Assembly (NCBI RefSeq): GCF_016756775.1
Contig: NZ_JAERMU010000002.1
Span: 62,001 to 126,000, forward strand
Direction of reading: 5' to 3'
DNA: 64,000 nucleotides
From: Dryocola clanedunensis subsp. sulfonylureivorans
GTDB lineage: Bacteria > Pseudomonadota > Gammaproteobacteria > Enterobacterales > Enterobacteriaceae
Shown: positions 21,543 to 62,805 of the stretch, in pieces
How the letters are laid out: every line of letters starts with the position of its first letter
How positions within the stretch are numbered: the stretch's first letter is position 1
Program-made: the position numbers and the translations under genes
Notes under the pieces: model-generated
What the model was told of the DNA's origin: nothing
The model's input: the letters and a program-made list of their open reading frames with translations, nothing else
Database searches by the model: none

Positions 21543-24140
21543 TCAGACCGCGGTCTGGAAAATCACGCCGTCTGCTTTCTCGGTGTACTGGGAAAGCTGG
21601 TCGAAGTTCAGGTAGCGATAGGTGTCCACCGCCGTTTTATCGACCTGCGCCATAAAGGTCTGGTATTCCTCAGGCGTTGGCAGTTTGCCGAGCAGTGAGG
21701 CAACTGCGGCAAGCTCTGCGGAAGCCAGGAAGACGTTCGCCCCGGTCCCTAAACGGTTCGGGAAGTTACGGGTGGAAGTCGATACTACGGTTGCACCGTC
21801 TGCCACACGCGCCTGGTTACCCATGCACAGTGAACAGCCAGGGATTTCGATACGCGCCCCGCTCTTGCCGAAGACGCTGTAATAACCTTCCTCGGTGAGC
21901 TGTGCCGCATCCATACGCGTTGGCGGGGCAACCCACAGACGAGTTGGCAGCTGGCCTTTGTGGCTGTCCAGCAGCTTGCCCGCCGCGCGGAAGTGGCCGA
22001 TGTTGGTCATGCAGGAGCCGATAAACACTTCATCGATTTTCTCGCCCTGAACGTCAGACAGCAGACGCGCGTCGTCCGGGTCATTTGGTGCGCACAGGAT
22101 CGGCTCTTTGATATCGTTCAGATCGATTTCGATGATCTCTGCGTATTCCGCGTCTGCGTCAGCTTCCAGCAGCTGAGGATCCGCCAGCCATTTTTCCATG
22201 CCCTGGATACGACGCTCCAGCGTGCGGCGGTCGCCGTAGCCTTCGGCGATCATCCACTTCAGCAGCACGATGTTGGAGTTCAGGTACTCTTCGATCGGCT
22301 CGCGATCCAGCTTGATGGTGCAGCCCGCAGCGGAACGCTCTGCGGAAGCATCCGTCAGCTCAAACGCCTGCTCGACTTTCAGCGTTGGCAGACCTTCGAT
22401 TTCCAGAATACGGCCGGAGAAGATGTTCTTCTTACCTTTCTTCTCAACGGTCAGCAGGCCCTGCTTGATAGCGTACAGCGGGATAGCGTGTACCAGGTCA
22501 CGCAGGGTGATACCCGGCTGCATTTTACCTTTGAAGCGCACCAGCACCGACTCAGGCATATCCAGCGGCATAACCCCGGTCGCAGCAGCAAATGCCACCA
22601 GACCGGAACCAGCCGGGAAGGAGATGCCGATAGGGAAACGGGTGTGGGAGTCACCACCGGTACCTACGGTATCCGGCAGCAGCATGCGATTCAGCCAGGA
22701 GTGGATAACGCCATCGCCCGGACGCAGCGACACGCCGCCACGGTTCATAATGAAGTCAGGCAGAGTGTGGTGAGTGGTCACGTCTACAGGCTTAGGATAA
22801 GCAGCCGTGTGGCAGAAGGACTGCATCACCAGATCTGCGGAGAAGCCCAGACACGCAAGGTCCTTCAGTTCATCACGAGTCATTGGACCGGTGGTGTCCT
22901 GAGAGCCGACGGACGTCATTTTTGGTTCGCAGTACTGGTTAGGACGGATGCCGTCCACGCCGCAGGCACGGCCAACCATTTTCTGCGCCAGAGAGAAGCC
23001 ACGGGTGCTGGCCACCACGTCTTTCGCCTGCACGAAAACTTCGCTGTGCGGCAGGTTCAGCGCTTCACGAGCTTTAGTCGTCAGACCGCGACCGATGATC
23101 AGCGGAATGCGGCCACCGGCGCGCACTTCATCAAGCAGCACGTCAGTTTTCAGTTCGAAATTAGCGATAACTTCGTTGGTGTCGTGATTACGCACTTCGC
23201 CTTTATACGGATAGATGTCGATAACATCGCCCATGTTCAGGTCGTTAACGTCTACTTCAATCGGCAGCGCACCGGCATCTTCCATAGTGTTGAAGAAGAT
23301 TGGCGCAATTTTACCGCCCAGAACCACACCGCCGCCGCGCTTATTCGGCACGTTCGGGATATCATCCCCCATGAACCACAGCACGGAGTTAGTGGCGGAT
23401 TTACGGGATGAACCGGTACCGACAACATCACCAACATACGCCAGCGGGAAGCCTTTCTTATTCAGGGCTTCGATTTGCTTGATGGGACCGACGCTGCCCG
23501 GCTGATCCGGATCAATGCCTTCACGGGCGTTTTTCAGCATCGCCAGAGCGTGCAGTGGGATATCCGGACGGGACCAGGCATCTGGTGCCGGAGACAGGTC
23601 ATCGGTGTTGGTTTCGCCGGTGACTTTAAAGACGGTAACGGTGATTTTCTCGGCAAGCTTTGGACGAGCCAGGAACCACTCGGCATCAGCCCAGGACTTC
23701 AGTACCTGCTGTGCGTGGCTATTGCCCGCTTTTGCTTTCTCTTCGACGTCATAGAAGTTATCGAACATCAGCAGCGTATGGGACAGCGCTTTGGCAGCAA
23801 TAGCAGCCAGCTTTTCGTTGTCCAGCGCGTCAATCAGCGGGTGAATGTTGTATCCGCCCTGCATGGTGCCAAGCAGCTCAACTGCTTTTTCCGGGGAGAT
23901 TAATGGGGAGGTCGCATCGCCTTTAGCGAGGGCAGCCAGGAATCCGGCTTTAACGTAGGCGGCTTCATCGACGCCTGGCGGAACGCGGTTGGTGATCAAA
24001 TCTAACAGGAATGCTTCTTCGCCAGCAGGCGGATTCTTCAGCAGCTCAACCAGTGCGGCCATTTGGGTTGCATCTAATGGTTTTGCAACAATCCCCTCGG
24101 CGGCACGTTCAGCTACGTGCTTACGGTATTCTTCTAGCAC
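21543..24140 (-). CDS. acnB: Aconitate hydratase B
   Basis: Main TCA-cycle aconitase, converting citrate to isocitrate with a [4Fe-4S] cluster; also 2-methylisocitrate dehydratase. The 865 residues equal E. coli AcnB when translation starts at the GTG at 24140, which has GAGGAG just upstream; longer in-frame options back to 24194 are not conserved. The N-terminal HEAT-like domain is characteristic of the B type. The cluster cysteines are in [12 protein letters not shown] and the GCSLCMGNQ motif, and SYR-type active-site segments such as [14 protein letters not shown] follow. It is flanked on the upstream side by the tandem repeat locus. Confidence 0.97.
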
Positions 24141-24354
24141 GACGGTTCTCCTCGCTCTCATTGTCATATGGCGCCACCAGGCTAATCTCTTCACGCTCCT
24201 GTGAGACAGCAGTTTGTAGGGTAAATGCCCGATACCGCGTCGGGCAGCATAGCAGGATTTTCAGGGGGAGTTAATCTGTTTACAAAAAAGCAACATACTA
24301 TTTTTGCTGAATCGTTACGGACGGGGTTTACGCGTTCAGAAATGAATATCGTTC
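24141..24354. other. Upstream region of acnB
   Basis: 214 bp between the acnB start and the first tandem repeat unit. It must hold the acnB promoter and is A/T-rich near 24280-24320 (TTTACAAAAAAGCAACATAC on the plus strand). I see no specific operator that I would defend. The E. coli neighbour yacH is absent here. Confidence 0.4.
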
Positions 24355-24355
24355 A

Positions 24356-24442
24356 CAAAAAAACCGCCTTTCGGCGGTTCGTTTGTCTCTGCAAGGTGGT
24401 AGCACACGTTGCGGAGAAGTGTTTTGTGGCAAGCTCAGTACA
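24356..24442 (-). ncRNA. Putative antitoxin sRNA, unit 1
   Basis: Inferred RNA of about 85 nt on the minus strand. Promoter: -35 TTGCAC (24477-24472) and -10 CAAAAT (24454-24449), spaced 17 bp. The same hexamers and spacing occur in unit 2 although the spacer sequence has diverged. It ends at a perfect terminator AACCGCC-GAAA-GGCGGTT plus seven T (24379-24357). Its 5' end is complementary over 15 of 15 nt to the peptide mRNA leader at 24643-24657. The start point is predicted, not measured. Confidence 0.72.
24357..24379 (-). terminator. Minus-strand terminator of sRNA, unit 1
   Basis: Seven-base-pair stem AACCGCC/GGCGGTT with TTTC loop (plus strand 24362-24379). On the minus strand it is followed by a run of T. 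On the plus strand no T-run follows, so it acts on minus-strand transcripts. Confidence 0.9.
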
Positions 24443-24569
24443 TGAAGGATTTTGCATCCAAATTTTTAACCGTGCAAGACCAATTGTTTATTTTGCGTAC
24501 TGCCACCAGAAAACGTATGTAACTTGCTGCAAACCGAAAATGGCTGTTTATCAGCATCCTTTTCTGCTC

Positions 24570-24575
24570 TACATT
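24570..24575 (+). promoter_or_regulatory. Candidate -10 box of peptide mRNA, unit 1
   Basis: TACATT at 24570-24575 aligns exactly one period from TATATT at 25095-25100 in unit 2, inside otherwise diverged sequence. The -35 region is poor in both, suggesting a weak or regulated promoter. It would give an mRNA with a leader of about 140 nt. Confidence 0.35.
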
Positions 24576-24720
24576 CGACGGCGGTCTGCTTCGCTGGTGT
24601 AGCAGCCAGTCACCGGGCACGGAAGCAGTTCATCTGCTCTACGTGGCAAGCTCAGTAAACTTGCCTGGTTCTGCCTTTCCCGGTGAAGAAGGGATCGCCG
24701 TAGTTTTACGGAAACACGCA

Positions 24721-24840
24721 ATGGAAATGCGTCTGCTTTACGCGCTTATCCTTGTGTTGGGTTCAGTTATCGCGCTGAGTCAGGGTGGCTGGAACATTTC
24801 AGACATCACGGTTCTGCTGGTGCTGAACCTGGGCAATTAA
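24721..24840 (+). CDS. 39-residue hydrophobic peptide, putative type I toxin, unit 1
   Basis: Small peptide with a hydrophobic span LLYALILVLGSVIAL (about residues 5-19), a central Gly-Gly-Trp and a second hydrophobic stretch ITVLLVLNLG at the end. Size and membrane character match type I toxins such as TisB or ZorO, though I recognise no sequence similarity. It starts at ATG 24721 with GGAAA 6 nt upstream; a second in-frame ATG lies two codons later. A hairpin CCGTA-GTTT-TACGG (24698-24711) covers the edge of the ribosome binding site. The sRNA pairing site is 63 nt upstream of the start, in the loop of a GGCAAG/CTTGCC hairpin. Unit 2 encodes the identical peptide with three synonymous changes only. 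Confidence 0.75.
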   Translation: MEMRLLYALILVLGSVIALSQGGWNISDITVLLVLNLGN

Positions 24841-24846
24841 GCTACT

Positions 24847-24870
24847 GGCCGCCCGCAAGGGCGGCCTTTT
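24847..24870 (+). terminator. Terminator of peptide mRNA, unit 1
   Basis: GGCCGCCC-GCAA-GGGCGGCC-TTTT, a very stable stem with a GCAA tetraloop, 6 nt after the peptide stop codon. Confidence 0.93.
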
Positions 24871-24880
24871 CGTTTGGGTA

Positions 24881-24967
24881 CAAAAAAACCGCCTTTCGGC
24901 GGTTAGTTTGTCTCTGCAAGGTGGTAGCACACGATGCGGAGAAGTGTTTTGTGGCAAACCTAATACG
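24881..24967 (-). ncRNA. Putative antitoxin sRNA, unit 2
   Basis: Minus-strand RNA of about 85 nt from promoter TTGCAC (25002-24997), 17-bp spacer, CAAAAT (24979-24974), ending at the terminator 24904-24882. Its 5' end pairs with the unit 2 mRNA leader at 25168-25183 over 16 nt with a single G-U wobble. The pairing segment differs from unit 1 in the same way as its target does, pointing to cognate specificity. Confidence 0.72.
24882..24904 (-). terminator. Minus-strand terminator of sRNA, unit 2
   Basis: Stem AACCGCC-TTTC-GGCGGTT (24887-24904 on plus) preceded by seven A, giving a T-run on the minus strand. Identical to the unit 1 copy. Confidence 0.9.
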
Positions 24968-25246
24968 AAAACTATTTTGCCTCCTGAAATGACCAGGTGC
25001 AAGTTAAACTGTTCGTTTTGTGCACACCTACCGGAAAGTGGATGCAACTCTATGCAAACACTAAATTGCCATATTCAAGTACACCGCTTTTATCTATATT
25101 CACCAGCGGCCTGCTTCGCTGGTGTAGCAGCCAGTCACCGGGCCTGGAAGCAGTTCATCCATCCTACGTGGCAAATCTAATACACTTGCCTGGTTCTGCC
25201 TTTCCCGGTGAAGAAGGGATCGCCGTAGTTTTTACGGAAACACGCA

Positions 25247-25366
25247 ATGGAAATGCGTCTGCTCTACGCGCTTATCCTTGTGTTGGGTTCGGTTATCGCA
25301 CTGAGTCAGGGTGGCTGGAACATTTCAGACATCACGGTTCTGCTGGTGCTGAACCTGGGCAATTAA
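25247..25366 (+). CDS. 39-residue hydrophobic peptide, putative type I toxin, unit 2
   Basis: Encodes the same 39 residues as unit 1. Three nucleotide differences (third positions of a Leu, a Ser and an Ala codon) are all silent. The leader hairpin next to the ribosome binding site keeps its stem (CCGTA/TACGG) and gains one T in the loop. It starts at ATG 25247 with GGAAA upstream. The sRNA target 25168-25183 is 63 nt upstream of the start, as in unit 1. Toxicity is inferred from architecture only. Confidence 0.75.
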   Translation: MEMRLLYALILVLGSVIALSQGGWNISDITVLLVLNLGN

Positions 25367-25372
25367 GCTACT

Positions 25373-25396
25373 GGCCGCCCGCAAGGGCGGCCTTTT
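25373..25396 (+). terminator. Terminator of peptide mRNA, unit 2
   Basis: Same GGCCGCCC-GCAA-GGGCGGCC-TTTT element as unit 1, just ahead of the lpd terminator. Confidence 0.93.
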
Positions 25397-25400
25397 AGCC

Positions 25401-25427
25401 AAAAAAAACGGCCCCGCAGGGCCGTTT
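25401..25427 (-). terminator. Terminator of lpd
   Basis: ACGGCCC/GGGCCGT stem with a CGCA loop, preceded on the plus strand by eight A, i.e. a T-run on the minus strand after lpd. Confidence 0.9.
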
Positions 25428-25443
25428 CGTCAAACTCGAAAAG

Positions 25444-26868
25444 TTACTTTTTCTTCGCTTTCGGGTTTGGCAGGTCGGTGATGCTACCTTCGAAGATCTC
25501 GGCAGCCAGACCCACTGACTCGTGCAGAGTCGGGTGCGCATGGATGGTGAGCGCGATGTCTTCTGCGTCACAGCCCATTTCGATAGCCAGGCCAATCTCA
25601 CCTAACAGCTCGCCGCCGTTAGTCCCGACAATCGCACCACCGATAACACGGTGAGTCTCTTTGTCGAAGATTAGCTTGGTCATACCGTCTGCGCAGTCGG
25701 AAGCGATAGCACGGCCAGAAGCAGCCCACGGGAAGGTGGCGGTTTCGTAGCTGATGCCTTTCTCTTTCGCTTCTTTCTCGGTCAGGCCAACCCACGCAAC
25801 TTCTGGTTCAGTGTAAGCAATCGATGGGATTACTTTCGGGTCGAAGTAGTGCTTCATGCCGGCGATAACTTCCGCGGCAACGTGACCTTCGTGAACACCT
25901 TTGTGCGCCAGCATCGGCTGACCGACGATATCGCCGATTGCGTAGATGTGCGGCACGTTGGTGCGCATTTGTTTGTCGGTACGGATGAAGCCACGGTCGT
26001 CAACTTCAACGCCGGCAGCGCCCGCGTCCAGCAGCTTACCGTTAGGGACACGGCCGATAGCAACCAGCACCGCATCATAACGCTGCGCTTCTGCCGGGGC
26101 TTTTTTGCCTTCCATAGAGACGTAGATACCGTCTTCTTTGGCTTCAACGGCGGTCACTTTGGTTTCCAGCATCAGGTTGAACTGCTTGCTGATACGCTTG
26201 GTGAACACCTTAACCACGTCTTTATCGGCGGCAGGGATGACCTGGTCAAACATCTCGACCACGTCAATCTCTGAACCCAGCGCATGGTAAACGGTACCCA
26301 TCTCCAGACCGATGATTCCGCCGCCCATAACCAGCATGCGTTTTGGTACGGATTTCAGTTCCAGAGCGTCGGTGGAATCCCATACGCGCGGATCTTCATG
26401 CGGAATGAATGGCAGCTGAATCGGACGGGAACCCGCCGCGATAATCGCGTTATCAAAGTTGATGGTAGTCGGGCCGTTTTCACCTTCGACAACCAGAGTG
26501 TTAGCGCCGGTAAATTTACCCAGACCGTTAACGACCTTAACTTTACGACCTTTCGCCATACCGGACAGGCCACCAGTCAACTGGTTGATAACCTTCTCTT
26601 TCCAGGTACGGATTTTATCAATGTCGGTTTTCGGCTCGCCGAAAACGATGCCGTGCTCGGCCAAAGCTTTCGCTTCTTCGATAACTTTAGCAACGTGCAG
26701 CAGAGCTTTAGAAGGGATACAGCCAACGTTCAGACAAACACCACCAAGGGTGCTGTAACGTTCAACAATGACGGTCTCCAGACCTAAATCAGCGCAACGG
26801 AATGCAGCGGAGTAACCAGCAGGACCAGCCCCAAGTACCACGACCTGAGTTTTGATTTCAGTACTCAT
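25444..26868 (-). CDS. lpd: Dihydrolipoamide dehydrogenase (E3)
   Basis: FAD enzyme reoxidising dihydrolipoyl groups with NAD+, shared by the pyruvate and 2-oxoglutarate dehydrogenase complexes and glycine cleavage. It shows the FAD-binding VVLGAGPAGYSAA, the redox disulfide GGVCLNVGCIPSKAL, NAD-binding VMGGGIIGLEMG and the catalytic HAHPTLHES near the C-terminus. The 474 residues equal E. coli. Two ATG codons are adjacent; the second (26868) is better spaced from AAGAGG and matches homologues. It lies 218 bp downstream of aceF and probably also has its own promoter. Confidence 0.98.
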   Translation of the reverse strand: MSTEIKTQVVVLGAGPAGYSAAFRCADLGLETVIVERYSTLGGVCLNVGCIPSKALLHVAKVIEEAKALAEHGIVFGEPKTDIDKIRTWKEKVINQLTGGLSGMAKGRKVKVVNGLGKFTGANTLVVEGENGPTTINFDNAIIAAGSRPIQLPFIPHEDPRVWDSTDALELKSVPKRMLVMGGGIIGLEMGTVYHALGSEIDVVEMFDQVIPAADKDVVKVFTKRISKQFNLMLETKVTAVEAKEDGIYVSMEGKKAPAEAQRYDAVLVAIGRVPNGKLLDAGAAGVEVDDRGFIRTDKQMRTNVPHIYAIGDIVGQPMLAHKGVHEGHVAAEVIAGMKHYFDPKVIPSIAYTEPEVAWVGLTEKEAKEKGISYETATFPWAASGRAIASDCADGMTKLIFDKETHRVIGGAIVGTNGGELLGEIGLAIEMGCDAEDIALTIHAHPTLHESVGLAAEIFEGSITDLPNPKAKKK

Positions 26869-26979: not shown

Positions 26980-27054
26980 AATTTTGAAACAACAAACGGC
27001 AAACGTTTTGTCCTATGCAGCAGATAATCCCAGACAACATCATGAGATTATCAG

Positions 27055-27083
27055 AAAAAAGCCGACCAGCAGGCCGGCTTTTT
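27055..27083 (-). terminator. Terminator of the pdhR-aceEF operon
   Basis: GCCGGCC / GGTCGGC stem (one G-T pair) with a 4-nt loop. On the minus strand it is followed by TTTTTT, immediately after the aceF stop. Confidence 0.88.
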
Positions 27084-27086
27084 GGC

Positions 27087-28955
27087 TTACATCACCAGGC
27101 GACGAATATCTGCCAGGGTGTTGTTGATGATGGTAATAAAGCGCGCACCATCAGCACCGTCGATCACGCGGTGGTCGAAGGAGAGAGACATTGGCATCAT
27201 CAGACGCGGCACGAACTCTTTACCGTTCCACACAGGCTCCATCGCGGACTTGGAGACACCGAGGATAGCCACTTCCGGCGCGTTAACGATTGGCGCGAAG
27301 TGAGTTGTCCCGATACCGCCCAGGCTTGAGATAGTGAAGCAGCCGCCCTGCATTTCACCAGCGGTCAGCTTACCGTCACGGGCTTTCTTGGAGATAGCCA
27401 TCAGTTCACGGGACAGTTCAGTGATGCTCTTCTTGTTCACATCTTTGAACACCGGAACCACCAGGCCGTTTGGCGTATCAACCGCCACGCCGACGTTGAT
27501 GTATTTCTTCAGCGTCAGCTTCTGGCCGTCTTCGGACAGGGAGCTGTTAAAGCGAGGCATCTGCTCAAGTGCAGTTGCAACAGCCTTCATGATGAACACC
27601 ACAGGAGTGAACTTCACGTCCAGCTTACGCTTAGCCGCTTCTTCGTTCTGCTGTTTGCGGAACGCTTCCAGATCGGTGATATCGGTTTTGTCGAAGTGGG
27701 TAACGTGCGGGATCATCACCCAGTTACGGCTCAGGTTGGCACCAGAAATTTTCTGGATACGACCCATTTCCACTTCTTCGATTTCACCAAACTTGCTGAA
27801 GTCGACTTTCGGCCATGGCAGCATGCCAGGCAGACCGCCGCCCGTCGCTGCCGGAGCAGTTTCAGCGCGTTTAACAGCGTCTTTCACGTAAGCCTGAACG
27901 TCTTCGCGCAGGATACGGCCTTTACGACCAGTGCCCTTCACTTTCGCCAGGTTTACACCGAACTCGCGCGCCAGGCGGCGAATCAGCGGAGTCGCGTGGA
28001 CGTAAGCGTCGTTTTCAGCGAATTCAGTTTTGCCGGAAGCCGCAGCTGGTGCAGCCGCTGGTTTCTCAGCTTTTGCCGCAGGGGCCGGAGCCGCTGCTTC
28101 TTGCTTAGCCGCCGGAGCAGGCGCTGCGCCTTCAACTTCGAAGACCATGATCAGGGAGCCGGTAGACACTTTGTCGCCAGTGCTGATTTTGATCTCTTTA
28201 ACTACGCCCGCAAACGGAGCCGGCACTTCCATAGAAGCCTTGTCACCTTCAACGGTGATCAGTGACTGTTCAGCGGCAACTTTGTCGCCCACTTTCACCA
28301 TCACTTCGGTCACTTCTACTTCGTCACCGCCGATATCAGGCACGTTCACTTCTTTCGAGCCGGATGCCGCTGGCGCTGCTGCCGGAGCGGCTTCAGCTTT
28401 GGACTCTGTTGCAGCAGGTGCAGCACCCGCCACTTCGAAGACCATAATCAGGGAGCCGGTAGACACTTTGTCGCCGGTATTGATTTTGATCTCTTTCACA
28501 ACGCCTGCAAACGGCGCCGGGACTTCCATTGAAGCTTTGTCACCTTCAACGGTGATCAGAGACTGCTCTGCTTCAACTTTGTCGCCAACTTTAACCATGA
28601 TCTCGGTGACTTCTACTTCGTCACCGCCGATGTCCGGTACGTTCACTTCTTTTGCTGCCGCAGCCGCTGGTGCCGCTTCTTTCTTCTCTTCTGCCTGAGC
28701 AGGTGCAGCGGCTGCTGCACCTTCGGCGGAATCGAAAATCATGATCAGTTTGCCAGTCTCGGTTTTGTCGCCAACAGAGACTTTGATCTCTTTAACAACG
28801 CCAGCCTGAGGTGACGGAACTTCCATAGAGGCTTTGTCGCCTTCTACGGTGATCAGCGACTGTTCAGCTTCAACTTTGTCGCCCACTTTGACCAGGATCT
28901 CGGTGATTTCAACTTCATCAGCCCCGATGTCCGGTACGTTGATTTCGATAGCCAT
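27087..28955 (-). CDS. aceF: Dihydrolipoamide acetyltransferase (E2) of pyruvate dehydrogenase
   Basis: Core of the pyruvate dehydrogenase complex, moving acetyl groups from lipoyl lysines to CoA. Three N-terminal lipoyl domains (about 1-80, 103-180, 203-285) each carry [10 protein letters not shown]; the lipoylated residues include Lys41 and Lys140. Ala/Pro-rich hinges separate them. The peripheral subunit-binding domain follows ([17 protein letters not shown]), then the catalytic domain ending in [14 protein letters not shown] with the active-site His. The 622 residues are slightly shorter than the 630 of E. coli, by hinge differences. It lies 15 bp after aceE. Confidence 0.98.
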
Positions 28956-61453: not shown

Positions 61454-62805
61454 GTACCTTTCTCCTGTAATGCGCGAACCACCTCTTCCATGGCCGCACT
61501 ACGTGAACCTTTCACTAAAATAGTCATCATTGAATGCTCCGCGAGCAGCGCTTTCAGGCGCACGATCGCAGTTTTTTTATCTGTAAAATGCTCGCCAACT
61601 TCAGACGCTTTACTGATAGTTTCACTCAGTTTGCCAACACTTATTACGCAATCAATTCCCGCAGCTTTCGCCGCTTCCCCCACCTCACGGTGGCACTGCT
61701 GTGCATCTTTGCCTAACTCGCCCATATCGCCGACCACCATCACGCGGAAGCCTGGCATTTCAGACAGCACCTGAGCGGCGGCAGTCATAGAGCCTACGTT
61801 CGCGTTGTAGCTGTCATCCAGCAACAGTTGCATTTCAGACAGTTGAATGGGATACAGACGTCCAGGAACAGCCTTCAGTTCAGCCAGCCCTGTTTTAATC
61901 GCCTCAAGCGGCGCGCCTACGGCCATTGCCAGCGCTGCGGCCGCCAGTGCATTAGCAATGTTATGGCGACCCGGCAGCGGCATGATCACATCCACTTCAC
62001 CCGTTGGGGTTTGCAAAGTGAACTCCGTGCCGTGCGTGGTGATGTGCAGGTTGGTCGCCGTGAAATCGCTGTCAGCCGCATTCGGTGAGAAGCGCCAGAC
62101 TTTGCGCTCGCCAATCACTTCCTGCCAGTTCAGCCAGTCGTTATTGTCGGCATTGAGAATGGCGATGCCGTTGGCGGGCAGGCCGGCGTAAATCTCGCCT
62201 TTTGCTTTTGCCACGCCGGCCAGGGAGCCAAATCCTTCCAGATGTGCTGCTGCAAGGTTGTTAACCAGGGCAGCTTCCGGGCGGGTCAGTCCTACCGTCC
62301 AGGCAATTTCACCCTGATGGTTGGCGCCGAGTTCAATGACCGCATAGTCATACTCTGGCGTCAGGCGCAGCAGCGTCATGGGCACGCCGATGTCGTTATT
62401 CAGATTCCCGGCGGTGTACAGCGTGTTACCGCACTGGCGCAGAATGGCAGCCGCCATCTCTTTAACAGAGGTTTTCCCGGATGAACCGGTAAGGGCAACA
62501 ATACGAGCGGGCACCTGCTGACGGACCCACGCGGCCAGCTGGCCAAACGCGAGGCGGGTGTCATCAACCACCAGCTGAGGAACATCAATTGGCAGTTTAC
62601 GGCTCACCAGCAGTGCGCCAGCCCCGCCGTTTACGGCATCCTGCGCAAAATCGTGCGCGTCGAAACGCTCACCTTTCAGCGCCACAAACAGGCAGCCCGG
62701 GGTTAATTTTCGCGTATCGGTGGTGACATCGATGATGTCGTTATCTGAGCCATACAGCTGACCAGGCAGGATTTCTGCCAGTTTGCTGAGCGCTACGCGG
62801 ATCAT
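61447..62805 (-). CDS. murF: UDP-MurNAc-tripeptide--D-alanyl-D-alanine ligase
   Basis: Adds D-Ala-D-Ala, made by DdlB, to complete the pentapeptide precursor. The 452 residues equal E. coli. P-loop [33 protein letters not shown] and [20 protein letters not shown] are visible. It starts 4 bp inside the murE end and overlaps mraY, as in other enterobacteria. Confidence 0.98.

Follow-up and report, generated by a model that had tools for sequence, protein, structure and literature searches.

The 64,000-bp window analysed here (positions 62,001–126,000 of contig NZ_JAERMU010000002.1) belongs to the genome of Dryocola clanedunensis subsp. sulfonylureivorans, hereafter the source genome. Between acnB and lpd, two minus-strand genes named by NCBIfam models, it carries two head-to-tail units of about 525 bp each (unit 1, 24355–24870; unit 2, 24880–25396). 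Repeat comparison found three direct repeats at a spacing of 525/526 bp, namely 24355–24459/24880–24984 (89% identity), 24568–24707/25093–25232 (88%) and 24704–24870/25230–25396 (98%), in agreement with the two 525-bp units of the preliminary description. Each unit comprises a plus-strand stretch of ~290 nt, in which a 39-codon ORF is followed by a terminator, and a short divergent sRNA-like unit on the minus strand that has its own terminator (Table 1); the hydrophobic 39-codon peptide gene and the strong plus-strand terminator previously described for each unit are both present. The two units are 91% identical in the timR-like part, 63–64% in the promoter spacer, 91% in the 5′UTR, 97.5% in the ORF and 100% in the last 30 bases. 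The earlier statement that E. coli has no such locus at this site was borne out: in none of 5,426 E. coli genomes does a single place span 80% of the 1,321-bp query, and the 20 matches listed reach only the first 175 bases of the query, beside acnB.

Table 1. Features of the two tandem units between acnB and lpd (coordinates of the window)
Feature	Coordinates	Strand	Remarks
timR-like antitoxin sRNA, unit 1	24355–24442	-	~88 nt; open 5′ tail, hairpin, terminator 24380–24361; 24426–24440 matches target 24643–24657
Candidate timR promoter, unit 1 (TTGCAC-N17-CAAAAT)	24449–24477	-	7/12 consensus, under scan threshold
TTTTGCGTAC motif between divergent promoters, unit 1	24491–24500	+	Motif chosen by eye
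timP-like mRNA, unit 1	24581–24870	+	RF00126 30.8 bits, E 2.2e-5, model 1–296; ends from covariance model
Pseudoknot strand in SL1, unit 1 (TCACCGGG)	24610–24617	+	Partner 24679–24686 (CCCGGTGA)
Predicted TimR1 target in 5′UTR (SL2), unit 1	24643–24657	+	15/15 identical to sense of TimR1 5′ region
Pseudoknot strand in SL3, unit 1 (CCCGGTGA)	24679–24686	+	Partner 24610–24617
TimP-like 39-aa ORF with stop, unit 1	24721–24840	+	ORF and translation
Terminator of timP-like mRNA, unit 1	24847–24870	+	Terminator scan
timR-like antitoxin sRNA, unit 2	24880–24967	-	~88 nt, start inferred
Candidate timR promoter, unit 2 (TTGCAC-N17-CAAAAT)	24974–25002	-	7/12 consensus, under scan threshold
TTTTGCGTAC-like motif, unit 2	25016–25025		Fixed place between divergent promoters; 8/10 bases
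timP-like mRNA, unit 2	25106–25396	+	RF00126 33.2 bits, E 4.5e-6, model 1–296; ends from covariance model
Pseudoknot strand in SL1, unit 2 (TCACCGGG)	25135–25142	+	Partner 25204–25211 (CCCGGTGA)
Predicted TimR2 target in 5′UTR (SL2), unit 2	25168–25183	+	15/16 identical to sense of TimR2 5′ region, remaining one a G-U pair
Pseudoknot strand in SL3, unit 2 (CCCGGTGA)	25204–25211	+	Partner 25135–25142
TimP-like 39-aa ORF with stop, unit 2	25247–25366	+	ORF and translation
Terminator of timP-like mRNA, unit 2	25373–25396	+	Four T after stem; absent from scan list

The plus-strand terminator, GGCCGCCC-GCAA-GGGCGGCC, is present at 24847 and 25373; the second copy does not appear in the terminator scan because it precedes four T only. 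On the minus strand, the scan placed terminators at 24380–24361 and 24904–24887, and in the interval 24000–25800 it recorded 11 terminator-like sites against 2.6 expected. A sigma-70 scan yielded no site at threshold, with 1.4 expected. Despite their diverged spacer, the two units have the minus-strand element TTGCAC-N17-CAAAAT in common, with a score of 7/12, and among 15 homologous units 10 have a site scoring 7/12 or better at the corresponding position; the start of timR was placed ~7 nt past the -10 element of this candidate promoter. The minus-strand unit had been described as complete from promoter to terminator, which holds for the terminators, whereas the promoter is weak and does not appear in the scan.

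The spacer between the divergent promoters contains a further element, TTTTGCGTAC, located some 90 bases upstream of the mRNA in MEMR-type units. At least nine of its ten bases are found in 11 of the 15 MEMR-type acnB-site spacers, as opposed to one of 29 other spacers (shuffles gave a mean of 0.07); in the source locus, unit 1 has all ten bases and unit 2 only eight. Given its selection by eye and the kinship of the units, we regard this motif as a lead towards a possible shared operator of the acnB-site units.

At E ≤ 1, the region matches a single Rfam family, RF00126 (ryfA), whose full model is spanned in both units, with scores far under the gathering score of 80 bits. The ryfA RNA is the timP mRNA of the Salmonella TimP/TimR system (PMC7667032, PMC11228461). 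The best RF00126 place in the source genome, at 194 bits, is a third and canonical timPR locus (L001, 1307–1797 in G000:C9), located between the kdpA side and a PRK10167-family gene. Across 295 genomes of the family, a search with strict filters and five candidates scored per genome matched 45 at E ≤ 1e-4, with 26 of these above the cut-off. MEMR-type acnB-site units of other genomes score 28–47 bits, under the cut-off as well. The acnB–lpd units that exceed it are those of G082 (91 bits), G021 (85 bits) and G166 (84 bits); a unit that adjoins acnB (L053) reaches 61 bits and one that adjoins lpd at a contig end (L052) reaches 70 bits. A separate match to RF00126 at 27054–27272 on the minus strand, inside aceF (L004; 26.8 bits, E 1.3e-4 in the search of the source genome itself), was judged to be due to chance because no known unit lies there, because it falls inside a coding gene and on that gene's strand, and because it is absent from the 295-genome search at E ≤ 1e-4.

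Both ORFs encode the same 39 amino acids, with three synonymous and no non-synonymous differences between them, and start at +141/+142 from the first base of the RF00126 model. TimP of the timPR system is a toxic inner-membrane peptide with a Sec-type signal; in the source peptide, the N-terminal half is hydrophobic, as judged from its sequence alone. Over 13 ORFs, pN/pS is 0.41, and pN is lower than pS in 77 of the 78 pairs. The peptide matched no Pfam or NCBIfam model at E ≤ 1 and nothing in plasmid or phage collections at E ≤ 0.01. A defence-system library matched none of 14 peptides, and Pfam run over the same 14 returned three families with one peptide each (best E 0.019). A profile built from 12 MEMR-type acnB-site peptides only (A2), applied in six frames to 14 genomes that had been chosen for their RF00126 hits, recovered at E ≤ 0.1 the two source units and 15 further places, all 15 of them on RF00126 hits. 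At this threshold it missed the canonical TimP of the source genome itself and found nothing in five of the 14 genomes (G237, G263, G187, G014 and G091); the ryfA copies of the first four adjoin sseB. When 27 RF00126-locus peptides (L051, L052 and L055 being left out) were compared with 10,800 shuffled decoys, 14 scored above every decoy, four of them from the acnB site (L048, L049, L050, L053) and ten from elsewhere. The canonical peptide of the source genome was among the 14 (13.9 bits, best decoy 11.0), and the 13 that failed to beat the decoys were sseA-sseB and other kdpA-ybfA-site copies. The profile and decoy results thus tie the acnB branch to many RF00126 loci through the peptide, while its link to the sseA-sseB type runs only via the RNA and via intermediate peptides. 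A profile that includes canonical members (A3) had hits in 38 of the 295 genomes, which for that reason are not counted as independent evidence. The initial view that the peptide has no similarity to known toxins is superseded, as the RNA matches RF00126, the mRNA of the TimP toxin, at scores under the cut-off, and the peptide is tied to those of RF00126 loci.

The 5′UTRs of 19 acnB-site units (15 MEMR-type and four others) were examined for a structure consisting of SL1, SL2 and an SL1–SL3 pseudoknot. Pairing is seen in 97.5% of 473 cells, against 26–55% in slid controls, a comparison in which the structure is favoured over its slid versions because it was written from these very sequences. 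Two-sided changes occur in eight of 25 pairs, in SL1 and SL2; shuffles gave 4.4, and three of 500 reached the observed number. Further pair types across the 19 5′UTRs were not above shuffles, 219 of 500 being at least as high. The pseudoknot helix, 98% paired, shows no two-sided change, so its pairing is conserved, not proven by covariation, and its strands are intact in both units. In the minimum-energy folds of both units, the two pseudoknot strands pair with each other in an ordinary nested helix, and single-sequence folding gave the 5′UTR a z of -2.13 in unit 1 and an ordinary -0.30 in unit 2. A CCGTA...TACGG hairpin ahead of the ORF, a candidate for SL4, the stem-loop that holds the Shine-Dalgarno sequence in timPR, was recognized by eye and by folding, in a part of the alignment too gappy for counting. 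The minus-strand RNAs fold with a largely unpaired 5′ end, followed by a hairpin and the terminator (z -3.3 and -3.6).

The predicted 5′ end of each minus-strand RNA is complementary to SL2 in the timP 5′UTR of the same unit. Units 1 and 2 differ in this region, yet each has preserved the match between seed and target. In a comparison of TimR 5′ ends with 5′UTRs in 16 units (15 MEMR-type and the canonical one, with damaged L007 and L016 included and the remnants L008, L023 and L024 left out), own pairing had a mean of 15.5 versus 10.1 for other units, and none of 100,000 permutations, which ignore kinship, reached the observed own-pairing sum. Own pairing ranked first in 14 of the 16 units, in 10 of them outright and in four as ties (G075/G195, G112/G290); these ties and the misses of G004 and G085 all involved a congener. 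For the three timPR loci of the source genome, the cofold gain of the cognate pairs was -12.1, -15.6 and -23.4 kcal/mol, as opposed to -3.6 to -6.9 kcal/mol for the six cross pairs. Isolated duplex energies separate the two classes less clearly (cognate -28.4 to -43.9, other -16.0 to -25.3), with TimR1, for example, at -25.3 with the canonical mRNA and -31.5 with its own. Cofolding thus predicts cognate-only interactions among the three loci.

We conclude that the acnB–lpd locus most likely consists of a tandem pair of diverged timPR loci of the type I toxin-antitoxin kind. Like timP-timR of Salmonella (ryfA/STnc2070, sseA-sseB), it has toxin and antitoxin genes that are divergent neighbours, a putative toxin mRNA of ~290–300 nt and a short hydrophobic ORF, and it shares the complementarity of the TimR 5′ end to a 5′UTR stem-loop, the SL1–SL3 pseudoknot pairing and the sRNA terminator; in Salmonella, the TimP ORF has 38 aa and lies near +145 from the start site (PMC7667032). 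It differs from the Salmonella locus in its place between acnB and lpd, its tandem layout, its 31–33 bits against the RF00126 cut-off of 80, its diverged peptide and its own TTTTGCGTAC motif between the promoters. The tandem ryfA1/ryfA2 pair of Shigella dysenteriae resembles it in that each copy has a divergent antisense RNA (ryfB1/ryfB2) and in the variable region at the pairing site, and RyfB1 is reported to lower RyfA1, not RyfA2 (PMC5333039). In contrast to the acnB–lpd pair, the Shigella copies occupy the usual ryfA place, are 95% identical and are treated as sRNAs in that report (PMC5333039). The canonical locus of the source genome has the same architecture and its own 18-nt seed-target match, but its peptide is only 21–26% identical to the acnB–lpd peptide, its pairing sequence is different and it occupies the kdpA/PRK10167 site.

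The search of enterobacterial genomes with the 525-bp unit that had been suggested at the outset found it in 15 of the 295 genomes of the family (E ≤ 1e-4), and two whole copies were found in the source genome alone. A pattern scan with one genome per species gave 11 records, from Cedecea colo, Cedecea neteri, Enterobacter pulveris, Enterobacter chuandaensis, Enterobacter sp., Franconibacter helveticus, Trabulsiella odontotermitis, Atlantibacter subterranea, Lelliottia sp. and two unnamed Enterobacteriaceae, and all 11 stretches also match acnB; the record of the source genome itself may be excluded by such a scan. In a tree of 45 units, which covers the listed loci and leaves out remnants and further hits without loci, the 20 acnB-site units together with L045, L054 and L055 share one side of a branch with support of 99/100, and the sseA-sseB (99/99) and kdpA-ybfA (100/97) groups are separate from the acnB side. 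The 20 acnB-site units are monophyletic in only 10% of the bootstrap trees, and L054, L055 and L051 have long branches whose joins may be false, according to a warning of the tree program. The neighbours kdpA, PRK10167, 3-mercaptopyruvate sulfurtransferase and SseB were named by NCBIfam, and the neighbour of the kdpA-side copies is presumably YbfA. The RF00126 search also revealed close ryfA pairs at other sites (604 bp apart in G119, 860 bp apart in G293), as well as genomes with three or four ryfA/timP copies (four in G032:C1, three in G119:C1, three in G293:C42 and C128).

Among six species of the genus, the source genome has two units, G004 has one and G002 has one without ORF start and stop, G003 and G005 have remnants and G001 retains the timR terminator only. 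Damage and loss of acnB-site units are common within the genus. Elsewhere, the copy of G103 is frameshifted and those of G269 and G126 are reduced to pieces. The damaged or eroded timPR copies at the acnB–lpd site of relatives are L007, L008, L016, L023, L024, L071 and L072. The spacers of units 1 and 2 are 63–64% identical, versus 91% for those of unit 2 and G004, and the ORFs of units 1 and 2 are 97.5% identical, versus 95.8% for unit 2 and G004. The counts are small, but such mosaic divergence would be consistent with conversion in the toxin part or with an exchanged spacer.

This erosion, both within the genus and in G103, G269 and G126, is what would be expected if timPR copies were passively kept at acnB–lpd and decaying in the lineage with no present role. 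We consider such a relic unlikely, although it deserves some weight, since both source ORFs are intact and differ only synonymously, the seed/target match persists in both units despite their differences, and the pseudoknot strands are preserved in each. Less probable still is that the main role of the plus-strand RNA is that of a regulatory sRNA, the original sense of RyfA, with a peptide of little import. That reading draws on published effects of RyfA1 in Shigella dysenteriae (PMC5333039), of RyfA in stress resistance of uropathogenic E. coli (PMC8205139) and of RyfA in avian pathogenic E. coli (PMC10664665, PMC13188913), but in Salmonella mutation of the timP start codon abolished toxicity and left the RNA in place (PMC7667032). 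The coding constraint on the 39-aa ORF argues against it as well. The preliminary description was correct as to the type I toxin-antitoxin kind, the tandem copies and the divergent antisense sRNA, but its analogy to zor/orz and ldr/rdl fails at the family level, where RF00126 alone was found. The E. coli loci zorO/orzO and ldrD/rdlD share with the acnB–lpd locus the type I logic and the repeated copies, and Rfam, Pfam and NCBIfam contain zor/orz and ldr/rdl models, none of which matched at E ≤ 1. Tandem layout and unit size might point to an actual zor/orz or ldr/rdl locus, but this can be practically dismissed because RF00126 is the sole Rfam match, the peptide has no Pfam or NCBIfam match and its profile leads to RF00126 loci.

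If the tandem timPR loci work as does timPR of Salmonella, the timP RNA would be translatable only once the SL1–SL3 pseudoknot has formed, and TimR would bind the pseudoknotted RNA at SL2, upset the pseudoknot and block translation. Shortage of TimR would then allow TimP to be made and inserted into the inner membrane, with damage when in excess. Loss of timR left growth unaffected in Salmonella (PMC7667032), so even a genuine timPR may lack toxicity at its native level. According to the predicted pairing, each TimR would silence its own copy only, and the two units and the canonical timPR would therefore be mutually insulated. A broader reading, which we put forward tentatively and at somewhat less than even chances, is that the timPR toxins form a birth-and-death family occupying several chromosomal sites. 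Within a tandem, the toxin would stay identical between copies, and the promoter spacer and the antitoxin-target pairs would drift into mutually insulated specificities. The acnB–lpd units would then represent an unrecognised subfamily with a shared operator of its own, and the source genome would contain three insulated circuits, two of which make the same toxin.

The timPR kind, the tandem arrangement and the antisense specificity are already in print, tandem ryfA with a specific antisense RNA having been published for Shigella dysenteriae (PMC5333039). No description of timPR at acnB–lpd was found in the open-access literature searched, and the available excerpts of papers on ryfA and acnB place the E. 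coli ryfA at sseA and bring up acnB in other contexts. The apparently new elements are the acnB–lpd branch, its divergence to below the Rfam cut-off and the presence in one genome of three timPR loci with predicted mutual insulation. The finding would extend a recently characterized type I system, whose pseudoknot switch was elucidated in Salmonella, to a branch that lies under that cut-off, and it may offer natural pairs for probing how specificity is set by the seed, stem-loop 2 and the pseudoknot. It also raises the question of why a bacterium would keep the same toxin twice, each copy under its own control.
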